Assembly: GCF_008935075.1 (NCBI RefSeq)
Contig: NZ_CP044545.1
Location: forward strand, 1,391,501-1,455,500
DNA: 64,000 nucleotides
Origin: Pradoshia sp. D12
Lineage (GTDB): Bacteria; Bacillota; Bacilli; Bacillales; Pradoshiaceae
Direction of reading: 5' to 3'
Shown: in pieces, positions 48,063 to 54,587 of the stretch
Layout: each line of letters begins with the position of its first letter
Numbering within the stretch: position 1 is the stretch's first letter
The notes under the pieces: generated by a model
Database searches by the model: none
What the model was told of the DNA's origin: nothing
The model's input: the letters and a program-made list of their open reading frames with translations, nothing else
Program-made: the position numbers and the translations under genes

Positions 48063-49730
48063 TTGGTTAAACAAATTAGACAGAAGATCAAAGTAATTGC
48101 ATTAGGCGGAGCAGGAGAGATTGGAAAAAATATGTATCTCGTCGAAGTAGACGAAGATATATTTGTGCTGGATGCCGGGTTAATGTTTCCGGAAACCGAA
48201 ATGCTTGGAATAGATGTAGTAATTCCAGATATCTCTTACCTTATCGAAAATAAAGAAAGAATTCAGGGGATTTTTCTATCCCATGGTCATGAGGATCATA
48301 TTGGTGCACTCCCTTATATTATTGAGGAATTGGATGCACCGGTTTATGGTACAAGATTGAGCATAGAATTAACAAAATCCAAAATCGCAGAAATTAACGA
48401 AAATTTAAATGTTGACTTTGAAGTAATAGATTCAAATACATCCCTGCGTTTTTCTTCTGCAAGAATCACATTTTTCAAAACAAATCACAGCATTCCTGAT
48501 TCTGTTGGAATCTGTATTGAAACAAAAGATGGTGCAATCGTTTATACGGGTGATTTTAAATTTGATCAGGCTGCCCAGGGACTTTACAAAGCGGAAATTG
48601 GCAAAATGGCAGCAATCGGTGAGTCAGGAGTTCTCTGTCTATTATCAGATAGCTCAGGAGCAGAACGGATTGGATTTACACCTTCTGAATCCCTTGTTGC
48701 AAGAAATATGTCTGATGAATTTTACAATGCAAAAGGCAGAATTATTGTAGCATGCTATGCATCTAATCTTAACGGTCTACAGCAAGTGTTCAATGCTGCG
48801 TTTGATAATCATAAAAAAGTAGCGGTTGTCGGTAAATCTATGGAAAAAGTATTGGAAATTGCCTTGGAATTTAATTATTTGGATGTCCATGAGGATGTGT
48901 TGATTCCGATAACTGAGATCGACCAATATGAAGATCGTGAAATAATTATCCTTGCGACTGGATTGCAGGGAGAGCCATTTGAAGCACTGCAAAAAATGGC
49001 TAAGCATGGTCATAAACAAGTTAATATTAAGCAAGGTGATACTGTATTATTGGCGGCTAATGCTGTCCATGGCGGAGAATTGCTTATGTCCAGGACTATC
49101 GATTTATTATTTAGAGCAGGTGCAAAGGTAGTAGCTGGTAAAAATCAAATCCATGTATCGGGCCATGGCAGCCAGGAAGAGCTAAAAATGATGCTTAACC
49201 TCATGAAACCGAAGTATTTTATTCCCATCCAAGGTGACTATAAAATGCTAATTGCTCATATGCGCATTGCAAAATCAATTGGCTTTAACCAAAATCAAAT
49301 CCATATACCAGAAAATGGTGAGGTTATTGAAATAACAAATGACTCGATTGAAAGCGCTGGAAAAGTGACTGCTGGGAATGTTTTGATTGATGGAAGTGGC
49401 GTTGGTGATGTAGGAAATATTGTCTTGCGTGACCGCCGTTTGCTATCTCAGGACGGAATTCTAATTGTAGTTGTGACTTTAAGCCGTGCGGATAAGAGTA
49501 TAGTAGCAGGTCCTGAAATCATTTCACGTGGATTTGTGTATGTTCGAGAATCAGAATCATTAATGGAACAATCAACAAATATTGTGCGTGAGATTGTAAT
49601 CAAAAATACTTCTAAAGACCATTTTGACTGGGCCGGAATGAAACAGGAAGTCCGTGATAGTCTAAATCATTATTTGTTCGATAAAACAAAAAGACGCCCA
49701 ATGATTTTACCAATTATTATGGAAGTGTAA
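48063..49730 (+). CDS. rnjB: Ribonuclease J2-type metallo-beta-lactamase nuclease
   Basis: RNase J enzymes degrade and process RNA from the 5' end and internally. The 555-residue protein begins VKVIALGGAGEIGKNMYLVE-like sequence. It has a metallo-beta-lactamase motif HGHEDH at residues 74-79, TGDFKFDQ, SDSSGAERIGFTPSE and VSGHGSQEELKMM of the beta-CASP region, and ends MILPIIMEV. The TTG start has CAGGAGGAAC upstream. Position after dapA matches rnjB of B. subtilis, but unlike that protein the metal motif here is complete. Confidence 0.92.
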   Translation: MVKQIRQKIKVIALGGAGEIGKNMYLVEVDEDIFVLDAGLMFPETEMLGIDVVIPDISYLIENKERIQGIFLSHGHEDHIGALPYIIEELDAPVYGTRLSIELTKSKIAEINENLNVDFEVIDSNTSLRFSSARITFFKTNHSIPDSVGICIETKDGAIVYTGDFKFDQAAQGLYKAEIGKMAAIGESGVLCLLSDSSGAERIGFTPSESLVARNMSDEFYNAKGRIIVACYASNLNGLQQVFNAAFDNHKKVAVVGKSMEKVLEIALEFNYLDVHEDVLIPITEIDQYEDREIIILATGLQGEPFEALQKMAKHGHKQVNIKQGDTVLLAANAVHGGELLMSRTIDLLFRAGAKVVAGKNQIHVSGHGSQEELKMMLNLMKPKYFIPIQGDYKMLIAHMRIAKSIGFNQNQIHIPENGEVIEITNDSIESAGKVTAGNVLIDGSGVGDVGNIVLRDRRLLSQDGILIVVVTLSRADKSIVAGPEIISRGFVYVRESESLMEQSTNIVREIVIKNTSKDHFDWAGMKQEVRDSLNHYLFDKTKRRPMILPIIMEV

Positions 49731-49740
49731 AAAAGGACGT

Positions 49741-49770
49741 AAATGGCTATCCAGCGGATAGCCATTTTTC
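49741..49770 (+). terminator. Intrinsic terminator after rnjB
   Basis: AAATGGCTATCC (49741-49752) pairs perfectly with GGATAGCCATTT (49756-49767) around AGC, followed by TT and C. Confidence 0.9.
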
Positions 49771-49843
49771 TTATTCGGGTAAGTTCCTGGTGAAAAAGAT
49801 AGGCTAGTTTATGAATTAAAGAAGAATGGGAGAGTGATACATA

Positions 49844-50296
49844 GTGATTACATTTGAACGCGTAACAGAAGAGAATTTATATATAGCAAAAGAAATGATG
49901 GATTCTAATTCTTCCTATTTTGATAATGAGTACGGTATATCGAAAAATAGGGAGGAAGTGTTAAAATTATTAACTCCAAACCAAGGTGATTATTTGATTA
50001 AAGCCGAGGATACGTATATTGGACTAACTGCTTTTATGGAGCATAAAGAGGAGCAGCTCGTTACGATTAATCTGATGATCATTCATGCAGATTACCAGGG
50101 ATTTGGTTATGGTACTACAGCCTACTATGAATTGGAGGATCTATTTATCAAGCGTGGATTTAAAAAAACTACACTGAATGTGAGAAGTGATAACAACAGA
50201 ATCAAATTATTTTGGGAGAGAAATGGGTATACAGCTAGTGAACAAGATACAAGTAATGAGAAAGATAGGGTTCATTACGAAAAGCATCTAGTTTAG
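49844..50296 (+). CDS. GNAT family N-acetyltransferase
   Basis: A 150-residue GNAT protein. The acetyl-CoA loop is visible as HADYQGFGYGTTAYYELED, a Q-x-x-G-x-G type motif A, preceded by the beta4 strand VTINLMII and followed by the NNRIKLFWERNGYTA motif B region. The substrate is unknown. The start is GTG 49844 with GGGAGAGTGA upstream. It has terminators on both sides and, to my knowledge of Bacillus gene order, is not part of the ancestral rnjB-tepA neighbourhood, so it may have been acquired with the adjacent non-coding block. Confidence 0.85.
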   Translation: MITFERVTEENLYIAKEMMDSNSSYFDNEYGISKNREEVLKLLTPNQGDYLIKAEDTYIGLTAFMEHKEEQLVTINLMIIHADYQGFGYGTTAYYELEDLFIKRGFKKTTLNVRSDNNRIKLFWERNGYTASEQDTSNEKDRVHYEKHLV

Positions 50297-50310
50297 TTTT
50301 AAGGTTACAG

Positions 50311-50345
50311 GCGGCTTGTTATAGAAAAGCCGCTCTGTTTTGTTT
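50311..50345 (+). terminator. Intrinsic terminator after the acetyltransferase
   Basis: GCGGCTT (50311-50317) pairs with AAGCCGC (50327-50333), followed by the T-rich TCTGTTTTGTTT. Confidence 0.72.
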
Positions 50346-50412
50346 CTGCTCACATTTAAGACTGATGATATGGAAGTAATTTCACCAATCAAAAAAAATA
50401 AAAAAAATTTAA

Positions 50413-50427
50413 ATGAAAACGGTTTAT
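50413..50427 (+). promoter_or_regulatory. Candidate CcpA (cre) site over the ncRNA promoter
   Basis: The 15-base segment fits the cre consensus WTGNAANCGNWNNCW at 14 of 15 positions; the penultimate C is an A. It overlaps the -35 element of the SigB-like promoter at 50422, so binding would be expected to repress. Confidence 0.4.
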
Positions 50428-50445
50428 TCTCTTAGAAATGGGTAT
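50422..50445 (+). promoter_or_regulatory. SigB-type promoter for the large ncRNA
   Basis: GTTTAT (50422-50427), a 12-base spacer and GGGTAT (50440-50445). The SigB consensus is GTTTAA, 12-15 bases, GGGTAT, so 11 of 12 positions agree. An overlapping TATATA could serve SigA but has only a poor -35. The expected start is near 50452. Confidence 0.68.
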
Positions 50446-50451
50446 TATATA

Positions 50452-51105
50452 AATAAGAAAGGAGGAAACAATAAAGTTTAACACTTCAGGTGACTCAATC
50501 ATATAGTGTTCGTTCCGTAAAAGGAAGCTTAAGTAATAAGAGTGAACGATATATGATCGAAACTATTTCTAAAAGGATTATGTGAATCTTAAACAAATGT
50601 GATAATGTGGTTTAATTCTAATGGTGAATTCTTAGGAAATTAACTCAAATGGGGAAGGATTGAAAGACAGATTTATACTGGATAGTAAGAAGTTTCAGTA
50701 TAAAAAAGTCCAGATATGTTTAACCAAAAGCCTTTCACCGGATATTTTTCAAAAGGGTGGAGTTAATAATAATAGGATTCTTACCAAATGAAAAACCAAA
50801 AAAGGCAAGGTGATGGTCACAATTGGATAAGAGTGGAATGGTTGTTTAGTTCCACATAATCAGGATTGATTGAAATGGAAAATCGGGTATGAGTAACCAA
50901 TAATTGAATATGCAGTGTGTTTTCAAGGTAAACGTAAAAGGTGTAAAGAAACCTTTATAATGCGGAACTAACACACTTCAGCTGAAAAGTTTGTACAGAA
51001 GTACCGGGCAGTAAAAAGTTATAATCAGCTGATGCATGGTTGAGTCTCCTAAGGTGTTAAACGATTGTTTCTCCTCAAGAATCCTAAATAAGGATTCTTT
51101 TTTTT
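50452..51105 (+). ncRNA. Large structured non-coding RNA (about 650 nt), family unassigned
   Basis: No frame of useful length exists in this stretch on either strand. Its ends are complementary. Bases 50476-50502 pair with 51036-51062 over 27 positions with only two mismatches and two G-U pairs. GGAGGAAACAAT (50461-50472) pairs with 51064-51074 with one bulge. Internal helices: 50510-50515/50544-50549, 50574-50579/50585-50590, 50672-50680/50696-50704 (9 perfect pairs), 50720-50724/50762-50766, 50833-50838/50850-50855, 50914-50921/50970-50977 enclosing 50937-50942/50951-50956, and TCAGCTGA 50978-50985/51025-51032. A SigB-like promoter precedes it and a perfect terminator ends it. It may belong to or resemble the OLE/ROOL/GOLLD class of giant RNAs, but I cannot assign it. 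Confidence 0.8.
51077..51105 (+). terminator. Intrinsic terminator of the large ncRNA
   Basis: AAGAATCCT (51077-51085) pairs perfectly with AGGATTCTT (51091-51099) around AAATA, with the T run extending to 51105. It begins three bases after the closing helix of the RNA. Confidence 0.93.
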
Positions 51106-51157
51106 GTATGTACTAAGTGCCCCTCAAATTGAATGGAAATGATTCCGCTGTACATAC
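51106..51157 (+). repeat. Inverted repeat upstream of tepA
   Basis: GTATGTAC (51106-51113) is the inverse of GTACATAC (51150-51157). TTGAAT (51129-51134) and CATACT (51153-51158) with an 18-base spacer inside it could be a weak tepA promoter. Confidence 0.4.
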
Positions 51158-51193
51158 TAAAGGGGAGAGCGTTTTTGTAGAGGGGGATTAAGA

Positions 51194-51931
51194 GTGGATA
51201 AAAAGTTAGAGGTACCTCATGAGGAAAAGCCAGTGGATGATAATAAGGGAGCTCCCAGTGCACTTGTAGATAAGATACAAGCTTTGGGACAAACCAATGT
51301 GCCGCAGTTGCCAAAAGATTCAACCATCCATTGTTTAACGATTATAGGGCAAATAGAGGGTCATGTACAATTACCTCCACAGAATAAAACAACAAAATAT
51401 GAACATGTTATTCCACAGCTGGTGGCAATAGAACAAAATCCTGATATTAAAGGGTTATTGGTTATCTTAAATACCGTTGGGGGTGATGTGGAAGCAGGGC
51501 TTGCTATGTCAGAAATGATTGCTTCTCTATCAAAGCCGACTGTATCTATCGTTTTGGGGGGAGGTCATAGTATCGGCGTCCCTATTGCAACTAGCTGTGA
51601 CTATTCTTTCATAGCAGAAACAGCTACTATGACAATTCACCCTATTCGTCTTACAGGACTTGTAATCGGAGTACCCCAATCATTTGAATATCTTGATAAA
51701 ATGCAGGATCGGGTTGTGAATTTTGTGGTCAAGCACTCAGACATTAATGAAGACACATTTAAGGATTTGATGTTTGCGAGAGGAAATCTTGCGAGAGATA
51801 TTGGAACAAATGTAGTGGGGGAAGATGCTGTGAAAACAGGTTTAATTGATGAGGTTGGCGGAATCGGTGCAGCGATTTCAAAGCTTAACGAGATGATAAG
51901 AGAAAAAAGTGACTCTTCGAAAGGAGATTAA
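51194..51931 (+). CDS. tepA: ClpP-like translocation-enhancing protease TepA
   Basis: TepA is a ClpP-fold protein linked to protein translocation and germination/spore functions in B. subtilis. The 245-residue product has [36 protein letters not shown] and [13 protein letters not shown] with a putative catalytic Ser126, then [11 protein letters not shown] with His149. The start is GTG 51194 with AGAGGGGG upstream. ylzJ follows after 2 bases, as in B. subtilis. Confidence 0.95.
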
Positions 51932-51933
51932 AT

Positions 51934-52143
51934 ATGACTTTTTATACAATTATGCCTTTGGATACTTTGATGTATGAAGAATTATATCAAGCCAGTCATG
52001 AAATGTTTAAGAAGGATGGTATTCCGTTTATTGGTGAAAGATTACCTAATGGAGCAGTAAAGGTTAACCGGATTATCAGTACAGATCCGAATGATTACTT
52101 ATCAGAGACACTTGCGCCAGGAGCGGTAATTAACAACCTGTAA
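51934..52143 (+). CDS. ylzJ: YlzJ-like small protein
   Basis: A 69-residue protein of the YlzJ family, found between tepA and spoIIIE in Bacillus. It begins MTFYTIMPLDTLMYEELYQ and contains ISTDPNDYLSETLAPG. Function is unknown. AAAGGAG lies upstream inside the tepA end, so it is probably co-translated with tepA. Confidence 0.88.
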   Translation: MTFYTIMPLDTLMYEELYQASHEMFKKDGIPFIGERLPNGAVKVNRIISTDPNDYLSETLAPGAVINNL

Positions 52144-52166
52144 TAGCAGTCAGTGTGTATTATTTA

Positions 52167-52175
52167 TGCTATAAT
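52167..52175 (+). promoter_or_regulatory. Probable extended -10 promoter of spoIIIE
   Basis: TGC-TATAAT at 52167-52175; no clear -35 at the expected place. It lies just ahead of the hairpin at 52193. Confidence 0.5.
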
Positions 52176-52192
52176 AAAGGGTGAACGGGGTA

Positions 52193-52215
52193 AAGGCAGC
52201 CAAGTTGGCTGCTTT
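52193..52215 (+). terminator. Terminator-like hairpin before spoIIIE
   Basis: GCAGCCA (52196-52202) pairs with TGGCTGC (52206-52212), extendable by A-T and G-U pairs, followed by TTTCTTTCGTTTTT. It either ends the tepA-ylzJ transcript or attenuates transcription from the promoter at 52167. Confidence 0.7.
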
Positions 52216-52253
52216 CTTTCGTTTTTAATTCTATATGAAATACGGGTGGTCGA

Positions 52254-54587
52254 ATGAGTAAGAAAAAAAAGAAATCTCGCTCCAAAAAAGGTGACCAAAT
52301 AAAGTCAACTTTAAAATATGAAATATCGGGACTTTCTATATTTGGGTTTTCTGCGATTGCGATGGCAAAGCTTGGGGCAGTAGGTACTTCATTCGTGTTT
52401 CTTTCTAGGTTTTTTATGGGTGAGTGGTACATTTTACTTCTGCTTGGCTTAATGGTCTTTGGTGTGTTACTAATGTGGAAAAGAGAGATTCCGTTCTTTT
52501 TTAAACGCCAGCTGGTCGGTATATACTTCATTATTTTAGCAATCTTACTCTCATCACATATTATTTTATTTGAGAATTTGTCCTCTAATAATGGATTTAC
52601 CCAGCCAAGTGTCATTTTAAATACCTGGGAAATCTTTTGGATGGAATTACAGGGAACTGCAAGTACCATTGATCTTGGCGGTGGGATGATAGGTGCAATC
52701 CTTTATGCCGTCTTCCATTTTTTATTTGCAGATGCCGGCAGTAAATTTATTTCATTTTTATTGATTGTTGCAGGTTTAATTCTTATAACCGGTAAAGGCT
52801 TAAGTGATTCAATTGGCAAAGTACTTGGTGCGATTGGAAGATTTATCGTCAGCCAGTGGAAATCGTTTATGGCTGAACTGCGAGAGCCTAAGACTTCAAA
52901 GAATAAAAACAAAAACCAGAAAGCTAAAAGTAAAAGTGAATCGGTACAAGCTTCCTCAGTACTACAAGATGAGGGAAGTAATCCAGAAAAAGAAGATACA
53001 CTTGAAGAAAGAATTATTTCGAATTTTGCTGATCGTGCCTATTTGGATGAGGAAATTGATGATAAGAAAAATGATGATCAGATAAGTAAACCAAATGATA
53101 GCACAGAAGCTCCTGCTGAACCTGTGCCACATATGAATTTTACAGAAGTTGAAAATGTGGACTATAAACTTCCAAAATTATCGCTATTGAAGTCACCAAA
53201 AAAAGCAGATCAAAGTGGAGAATATGAATTAATACATACAAATGCTGAGAAATTAGAGAGTACTTTTAAAAGCTTTGGAGTGAAAGCTAGGGTCACTCAA
53301 GTTCACTTAGGACCTGCAGTTACGAAATATGAAGTACATCCTGATGTAGGTGTAAAGGTTAGTAAGATTGTGTCATTATCAGACGATCTGGCATTAGCGC
53401 TCGCTGCTAAGGATATACGTATTGAAGCACCAATCCCAGGTAAATCAGCGATTGGGATAGAAGTGCCTAATTCAGATGTAGCAGTCGTTTCATTAAGAGA
53501 GGTTCTCGAGGTACAGCCTTCTGAAAAAAGCGGTTCTAAACTATTAATTGCTTTGGGTAGAGACATATCAGGTGAAGCAGTTTCTGCTGAACTGAATAAA
53601 ATGCCTCACTTACTCGTAGCCGGAGCAACCGGAAGCGGGAAAAGTGTCTGTATTAACGGAATCATTACTAGTGTACTCATGAGAGCAAAACCACATGAAG
53701 TTAAAATGATGATGATTGATCCAAAAATGGTGGAGTTAAATGTTTATAATGGAATTCCTCATCTATTAGCTCCAGTTGTAACGGATCCTAAAAAAGCAGC
53801 TCAGGCATTAAAGAAAGTTGTTATGGAAATGGAAAGACGTTATGAGCTGTTTTCCCACTCAGGAACTCGAAATATTGAGGGGTACAATGACTTAGTGACG
53901 AGACAAAATTTAGAAGAAGGCGAAAAAAATCCTTTATTGCCATATATTATTGTCATTGTGGATGAGTTGGCAGACCTTATGATGGTTGCGTCCAGCGAGG
54001 TGGAGGATGCGATAACAAGGCTTGCACAAATGGCAAGGGCTGCAGGCATACATTTGATTATTGCAACCCAGCGGCCATCTGTAGATGTTATAACAGGAGT
54101 TATAAAAGCTAACATACCATCAAGGATTGCCTTTAGTGTTTCCTCCCAAATTGATTCAAGAACCATATTAGATATGGGAGGGGCAGAAAAACTTCTCGGT
54201 CGCGGGGATATGTTATTCCTGCCTGTAGGTGCGTCAAAGCCAGTACGGGTACAAGGTGCCTTTTTATCAGATCAGGAAGTGGAAGATGTAGTAGACTTCG
54301 TGATTTCTCAGCAAAGAGCCCAATATCAAGAGAATATGATTCCGGATGAAGTTCAGGAAACAGTAAGTGAATCAACAGATGACTTATATGATGAAGCCGT
54401 CAAATTAATTGCTGATATGCAAACCGCCTCTGTTTCGATGCTCCAAAGACGATTCAGGATTGGGTATACAAGGGCTGCACGTTTGATCGATGAGATGGAA
54501 GCTCGCGGTGTCGTTGGTCCGTATGAAGGAAGCAAACCAAGAACTGTACTTGTTCCCAAGGACTTCGATCAAGCTAGTAATTCATAA
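52254..54587 (+). CDS. spoIIIE: DNA translocase SpoIIIE/FtsK
   Basis: SpoIIIE pumps the chromosome into the forespore and clears DNA from division septa. The 777-residue protein has a basic N-terminus, four membrane helices (about residues 20-185), a polar linker, and the motor with Walker [14 protein letters not shown] (near residue 456), Walker [14 protein letters not shown] and the FtsK segment [20 protein letters not shown]. The C-terminal winged-helix gamma domain includes [21 protein letters not shown], which reads SRS/KOPS-type sequences. Length is close to the 789 known for B. subtilis. Confidence 0.97.

Follow-up and report, generated by a model that had tools for sequence, protein, structure and literature searches.

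Evidence for a family of large standalone structured RNAs with a conserved paired frame and a variable interior in Bacillaceae

The interval between a GNAT gene and tepA in the window (the 64,000-nucleotide stretch of Pradoshia sp. D12 DNA analyzed here) almost certainly encodes a member of a real family of standalone structured RNAs, which is unlisted in Rfam 15 and has members in at least 21 genera of a single order. Sequence comparison shows the members to be non-coding, chromosomally encoded units of Bacillaceae with their own promoter and their own terminator; the helices P1 and P3, the independence of the transcription unit and, in most members, a regulated promoter are conserved. The significant structure is an outer P1/P2/P3 frame together with lineage-specific interior helices. 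To our knowledge, very few classes of large structured RNA have been recognized in bacteria, mostly without a settled function. As far as can be seen, this kind of RNA (large, standalone, structured and of unsettled function) is already represented, and the family itself, its proposed bistable frame with a variable interior and its redox promoter are new. A literature search returned no description of the family; preprints and subscription papers lay outside its scope, and a prior description is possible.

The RNA unit of the window comprises ~620 nt from promoter to terminator within positions 50452-51105. It is flanked by the GNAT gene (49844-50296), with rnjB (48063-49730) upstream of both, and by tepA (51194-51931), which begins 95 nt past the RNA terminator. 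Two statements of the earlier note hold for this interval: it lacks a credible reading frame, and an intrinsic terminator (51077-51099 plus a T run) directly follows the closing helix. The parts of the unit, in window coordinates, are as follows.

50422-50448, + strand: sigma-B-like promoter, GTTTAT (50422-50427), 12 nt, GGGTAT (50440-50445); read from sequence, by consensus resemblance
50443-50448, + strand: alternative sigma-A -10 element TATTAT; read from sequence
from ~50414, + strand: cre-like TGAAAACGGTTTAT, overlapping the promoter; by consensus resemblance
50460-50472, + strand: P0 5' strand AGGAGGAAACAAT, pairing with 51064-51075; species-specific, absent from loci L015 and L016
50476-50502, + strand: P1 5' strand of the closing helix, with an inner part, GACUCAAUCAU, that is near-invariant in the family
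50506-50519, + strand: P2 5' strand GUGUU-C-GUUCCGUA, whose partner is 50961-50974 or, locally, 50544-50549
50544-50549, + strand: GAACGA, local alternative partner of UCGUUC (50510-50515); kept in most homologues
50550-50960, + strand: variable interior, with conserved patches common to two sister species
50961-50974, + strand: P2 3' strand UGCGGAAC-U-AACAC
50978-51032, + strand: P3 hairpin, stem 50978-50985 with 51025-51032 (UCAGCUGA/UCAGCUGA); covariation
51036-51062, + strand: P1 3' strand AUGGUUGAGUCUCCUAAGGUGUUAAAC; covariation
51077-51105, + strand: intrinsic terminator, 9-bp stem (stem region 51077-51099) and T run

The closing complementarity of nearly 40 positions described in the earlier note divides into two parts. 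P1 (50476-50502 with 51036-51062) stands as a helix of 27 positions, two of them mismatched; the segments at its base (50460-50472 and 51064-51075, ~12 pairs) do pair but are specific to the species, since this extension is not common to two sister species. Covariation among homologues, which that note had proposed looking for, is present in both P1 and P3. Across 53 copies of P1, 95.2% of cells are paired, and 69 cells carry compensatory changes (double-sided, with pairing kept) versus a mean of 11.8 and a maximum of 23 when the 3' strands are permuted. Sliding the strands by 1-3 positions drops pairing to 27-49%. These changes sit in the basal half of P1; the inner half (GRCUCAACCA/UGGUUGRGUC) hardly varies and retains its G-U wobbles, although members were chosen by their 5' sequence or 3' module, so that the invariance of the chosen stretches, and not the end-to-end pairing, arises partly by construction. 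In P3, double-sided changes occur in 9 of 10 pairs (30 sequences), a result matched by no shuffle.

Folding energies place the stable structure in the frame. The whole unit of the window folds far below its shuffles (z -8.1, 20 shuffles), as does the conserved unit (z -6.3). The interior alone reaches z -1.8, close to chance, and the ‘at least seven further helices’ proposed within it are therefore unsupported in this species. Family means follow the same division, at -2.8 for interiors versus -7.7 for whole RNAs, and the interior is weakly structured in many members. Applied to the Neobacillus type, RNAalifold recovers the three frame helices P1, P2 and P3 together with a conserved GGAAUU hairpin and one additional helix.

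The P2 5' strand has two conserved and mutually exclusive partners, a pattern that likely constitutes a folding switch. This strand (GUGUU-N-GUUCCG) is complementary to CGGAAC-N-AACAC, located close to the 3' end, as well as to a GAACGA-type segment that follows shortly after it, and both partners are kept in most members. CGGAAC occurs in 40 of the 53 homologues, either in the interior or in the 3' region (2.5 expected). Members whose 5' element is GUUGGUU have AACCAAC or AACCAAU as the local partner, a compensatory change that affects the very position left mismatched in P2. In partition functions for the first 120 nt, the local hairpin exceeds a probability of 0.5 in 38 of 49 RNAs; full-length RNAs split between P2 (23) and the local form (15). 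The RNA of the window is predicted to form the local hairpin at 0.57 when nascent and P2 at 0.92 at full length. These predictions are consistent with a hand-over during transcription. Two qualifications apply: the search for P2 and local partners maximizes pairing, and part of the case for the proposed switch comes from thermodynamic predictions and from near-invariant sequence, in which covariation is hardly informative.

Homologues were collected by several routes. With blastn, the RNA was found at rnjB-tepA in both sister species of the genus, and a match was returned in another family. A pattern for the 5' end then gave 33 loci in Neobacillus, Mesobacillus, Robertmurraya and assorted Bacillus, most of which have a matching 3' end 176-668 nt downstream, though the pattern did not require one. 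A covariance model built solely from the 3' module (R1), which misses divergent copies, detected the RNA within the order in 44 of 397 genomes, representing 21 of 135 genera, and nowhere outside the order in a class-wide sample of 399 genomes. Weak R1 matches in seven genomes (L096-L102) were read whole, and all have a matching P1 5' strand, which is not part of the model. Length varies three-fold across the family, from 219 to 710 nt, with the frame kept while interior length and sequence vary; the shortest members measure 219 nt (L032) and 295 nt (L039). A promoter and a terminator of their own accompany the homologues, with a few (including L083) having no obvious terminator.

The genomic setting of the RNA is constant within genera and differs between them. 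It lies at rnjB-tepA in three species of the window's genus, the only genus with this location, and at YitT-like and related sites in Neobacillus. This shifting of sites, the near-palindromic ends and the tandem copies in genome G329 could be read as marks of a mobile or selfish element with a conserved terminal inverted sequence. We regard such an element as very improbable, given the constancy of the site within genera, the conserved promoter and terminator, compensatory changes that act at the RNA level and the low copy number (two in the window genome). A phage, virus or plasmid origin was rejected after two patterns gave 0 matches in viral contigs and blastn against phages and plasmids gave none.

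Position and coding content were also considered as explanations of the unit itself. In the window and in two sister species, where it likewise lies at rnjB-tepA, the RNA precedes a co-oriented tepA, the arrangement expected if it were a cis-acting leader or attenuator of the downstream gene. However, the terminator falls 95 nt before tepA in the window, and in other genomes a different gene follows, often on the opposite strand. The first neighbours vary between genera and occur on either strand; this diversity refutes the leader for the family and leaves it with hardly any likelihood. An encoded small protein or type I toxin is just as hard to credit. Small open reading frames do occur in the homologues, in the number expected for any 600 nt, but none is kept beyond close relatives, only 11 of 169 are preceded by a ribosome-binding-like site, and a coding function sits poorly with the three-fold variation in length. 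A conserved small reading frame, which the earlier note had named as grounds for giving up its proposal, was thus looked for across the homologues and none was found. Because no small open reading frame is conserved and the neighbours differ, we consider the unit a standalone non-coding RNA.

The promoters offer a physiological handle that ROOL and GOLLD do not. In 32 of 53 promoters an extended -10 element is preceded, at a distance of exactly 47 bp, by the sequence TTCACA-N5-GnCACA; in a shuffled control this sequence appears anywhere upstream in ~1 of the 53. Its inverted form, TGTGnC-N5-TGTGAA, is found upstream of the small RNA RoxS (RF01820) in 12 of 13 carrier genomes (null 0.4). Experiments have shown that RoxS depends on ResD and that nitric oxide induces it (PMC4409812). 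The box before RoxS is likely the ResD site, and we infer that the TTCACA-N5-GnCACA box is what ResD binds; ResD probably controls the RNA in those lineages that have the box. Matches to cre sites occur in 14 of 53 promoters (null 0.3) and Rex-type palindromes in 5 of 53 (null 0.08). The RNA is a possible new player in redox adaptation, with most family members apparently switched on by a low-oxygen control system. Across the RoxS loci (L105-L120), the TGTGnC-N5-TGTGAA box keeps a constant place in nearly all genomes tested.

The ResD-type box is absent from the window's genus and from some others. The three promoters of this genus instead have the form GTTTnn-N12/13-GGGTAW (GTTTCA-N13-GGGTAA and GTTTCT-N13-GGGTAA in the sister species), which we take to be that of sigma-B promoters; sigB is present in the window genome. 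The sigma-B-like promoter and the cre-like site overlap at 50414-50448, a position kept in the three species of the genus and one that replaces the ResD-type box. Informative growth conditions suggested by these promoter sites are low oxygen, nitric oxide and poor carbon, and sigma-B stress for the window's genus.

The RoxS-like control of the promoter, shared with a known pairing small RNA, raises the question of whether the RNA itself regulates by base-pairing. Under this explanation the P1/P2 frame is a stability clamp and the variable interior pairs with mRNAs, the targets differing by lineage or paralogue. Variation of the interior in length and sequence within a kept frame, and the presence of several diverged or tandem copies in some genomes, would fit such a regulator. 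The near-invariant inner P1, however, exceeds what a clamp needs, and among the 53 homologues no interior seed conserved across genera was found. Duplexes with RoxS have a mean z of +0.24 and give no sign of pairing. Taken together, we consider base-pairing through the interior unlikely, though the strongest of the alternatives. A role as a sponge of RoxS was rejected on the same duplex value. RoxS shares a 17-bp promoter site (inverted) with the new RNA in genomes that carry both; it differs in being ~115 nt long with C-rich seeds, and there is neither homology nor predicted pairing between the two.

The earlier note left two options, a new family or a known one of which this RNA would be a diverged or relocated member; comparison with known families settles on the first: neither the window nor distant members match Rfam, and a genuine OLE lies elsewhere in the genome. 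No Rfam 15 family exceeds its threshold in the window, and a permissive scan of 49500-52500 (E up to 10) yields chance-level matches, with no OLE, ROOL, GOLLD or raiA. Scans of 13 homologous loci, of the shortest member and of the tandem array return no family match, except a lysine riboswitch (RF00168; L050:7513-7702, + strand) that lies near one of the loci and is unrelated. A diverged or relocated OLE, ROOL or GOLLD was rejected on these grounds; the gathering score of 50 bits for OLE (RF01071) is not reached at the RNA locus, and the only OLE of the window genome scores 464.7 bits at G000:C1:2767698-2768299 (- strand). OLE resembles the new RNA as a large (~610 nt), stress-linked structured RNA that forms its own chromosomal unit in Bacillaceae, whereas the new RNA varies in length and neighbours, sometimes has several copies and shows no sequence or covariance match to OLE. 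OLE occurs in 225 of 397 genomes of the order and, by a hand count, in 31 of 44 carriers of the new RNA (70%) versus 194 of 353 non-carriers (55%), a weak association that is confounded by phylogeny. The raiA-motif RNA and ModT are likewise standalone structured RNAs of Bacillota, and the window has no Rfam match to them.

GOLLD and ROOL approach the new RNA in size, and GOLLD also has one conserved end and a variable rest. An oligomeric architecture of the OLE, ROOL or GOLLD type, in which the conserved frame supplies the contacts, the variable linker lies inside and the assembly forms a cage or platform, would accord with the size, the standalone unit and the conserved ends around a variable interior. 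Against this architecture, the RNA is chromosomal and not phage-linked, has no homology to OLE, ROOL or GOLLD, and has an interior that is weakly structured in many members; neither Rfam nor the phage, viral-contig and plasmid searches connect it to GOLLD or ROOL. We consider this architecture distinctly unlikely.

For the mode of action we favor titration or scaffolding of a partner in trans, followed by base-pairing through the interior and then by an oligomeric architecture. The favored account, which combines the family, ResD control, the folding hand-over and action in trans, has in our estimate a probability of roughly 0.45. In most lineages a ResD-type regulator would activate transcription at low oxygen or with nitric oxide through TTCACA-N5-GnCACA, joined in some by CcpA or Rex sites; in the window's genus the sigma-B/cre-like promoter would substitute for this control. 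During synthesis the 5' GUUCGUUC and GAACGA would form the local hairpin. As the 3' end emerges, P2 and P1 would capture the strands of that hairpin, so that the RNA closes and both ends are shielded from exonucleases. The closed frame, with its hardly changing inner P1 and kept G-U wobbles, may then dock a conserved partner, most likely a protein, which the RNA would titrate or scaffold in trans under stress or low oxygen; lineage-specific contacts could come from the variable interior. Titration or scaffolding of a protein is suggested by analogy. A comparison of working mode only can be made with 6S RNA, a long hairpin-type RNA that titrates a protein; the new RNA does not match it, and its architecture, to the extent tested, differs from that of a promoter mimic. 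A still more specific form is doubtful: a class of bistable frames that pass from the nascent local hairpin to long-range P2/P1 and, under ResD, oligomerize or recruit a dedicated partner around an exchangeable interior. If true, this would be a redox-responsive RNA chassis with lineage-specific payloads. The minimal versions (219 nt L032 and 295 nt L039) suit structural and partner work.

We observed additional copies and one further motif. The second copy in the window genome (L083, G000:C1:3435854-3435958, - strand) spans 324 nt and contains P1 and P2/P3 elements, with no obvious T-run terminator. Tandem or double copies occur in genomes G329, G102 and G006. Locus L099 (G329:C32:91500-97000) contains three complete units within ~3 kb, each with its own promoter and terminator, and the two copies at L098 are 5.5 kb apart. 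A GAGUC-like motif is located ~110-150 nt before the end of the interior (e.g. L017, L027 and L016). Without enrichment in the divergent subset, it is present in 29 of the 53 homologues (10.6 expected), and by its sequence it could rival the P1 3' strand for the P1 5' strand.
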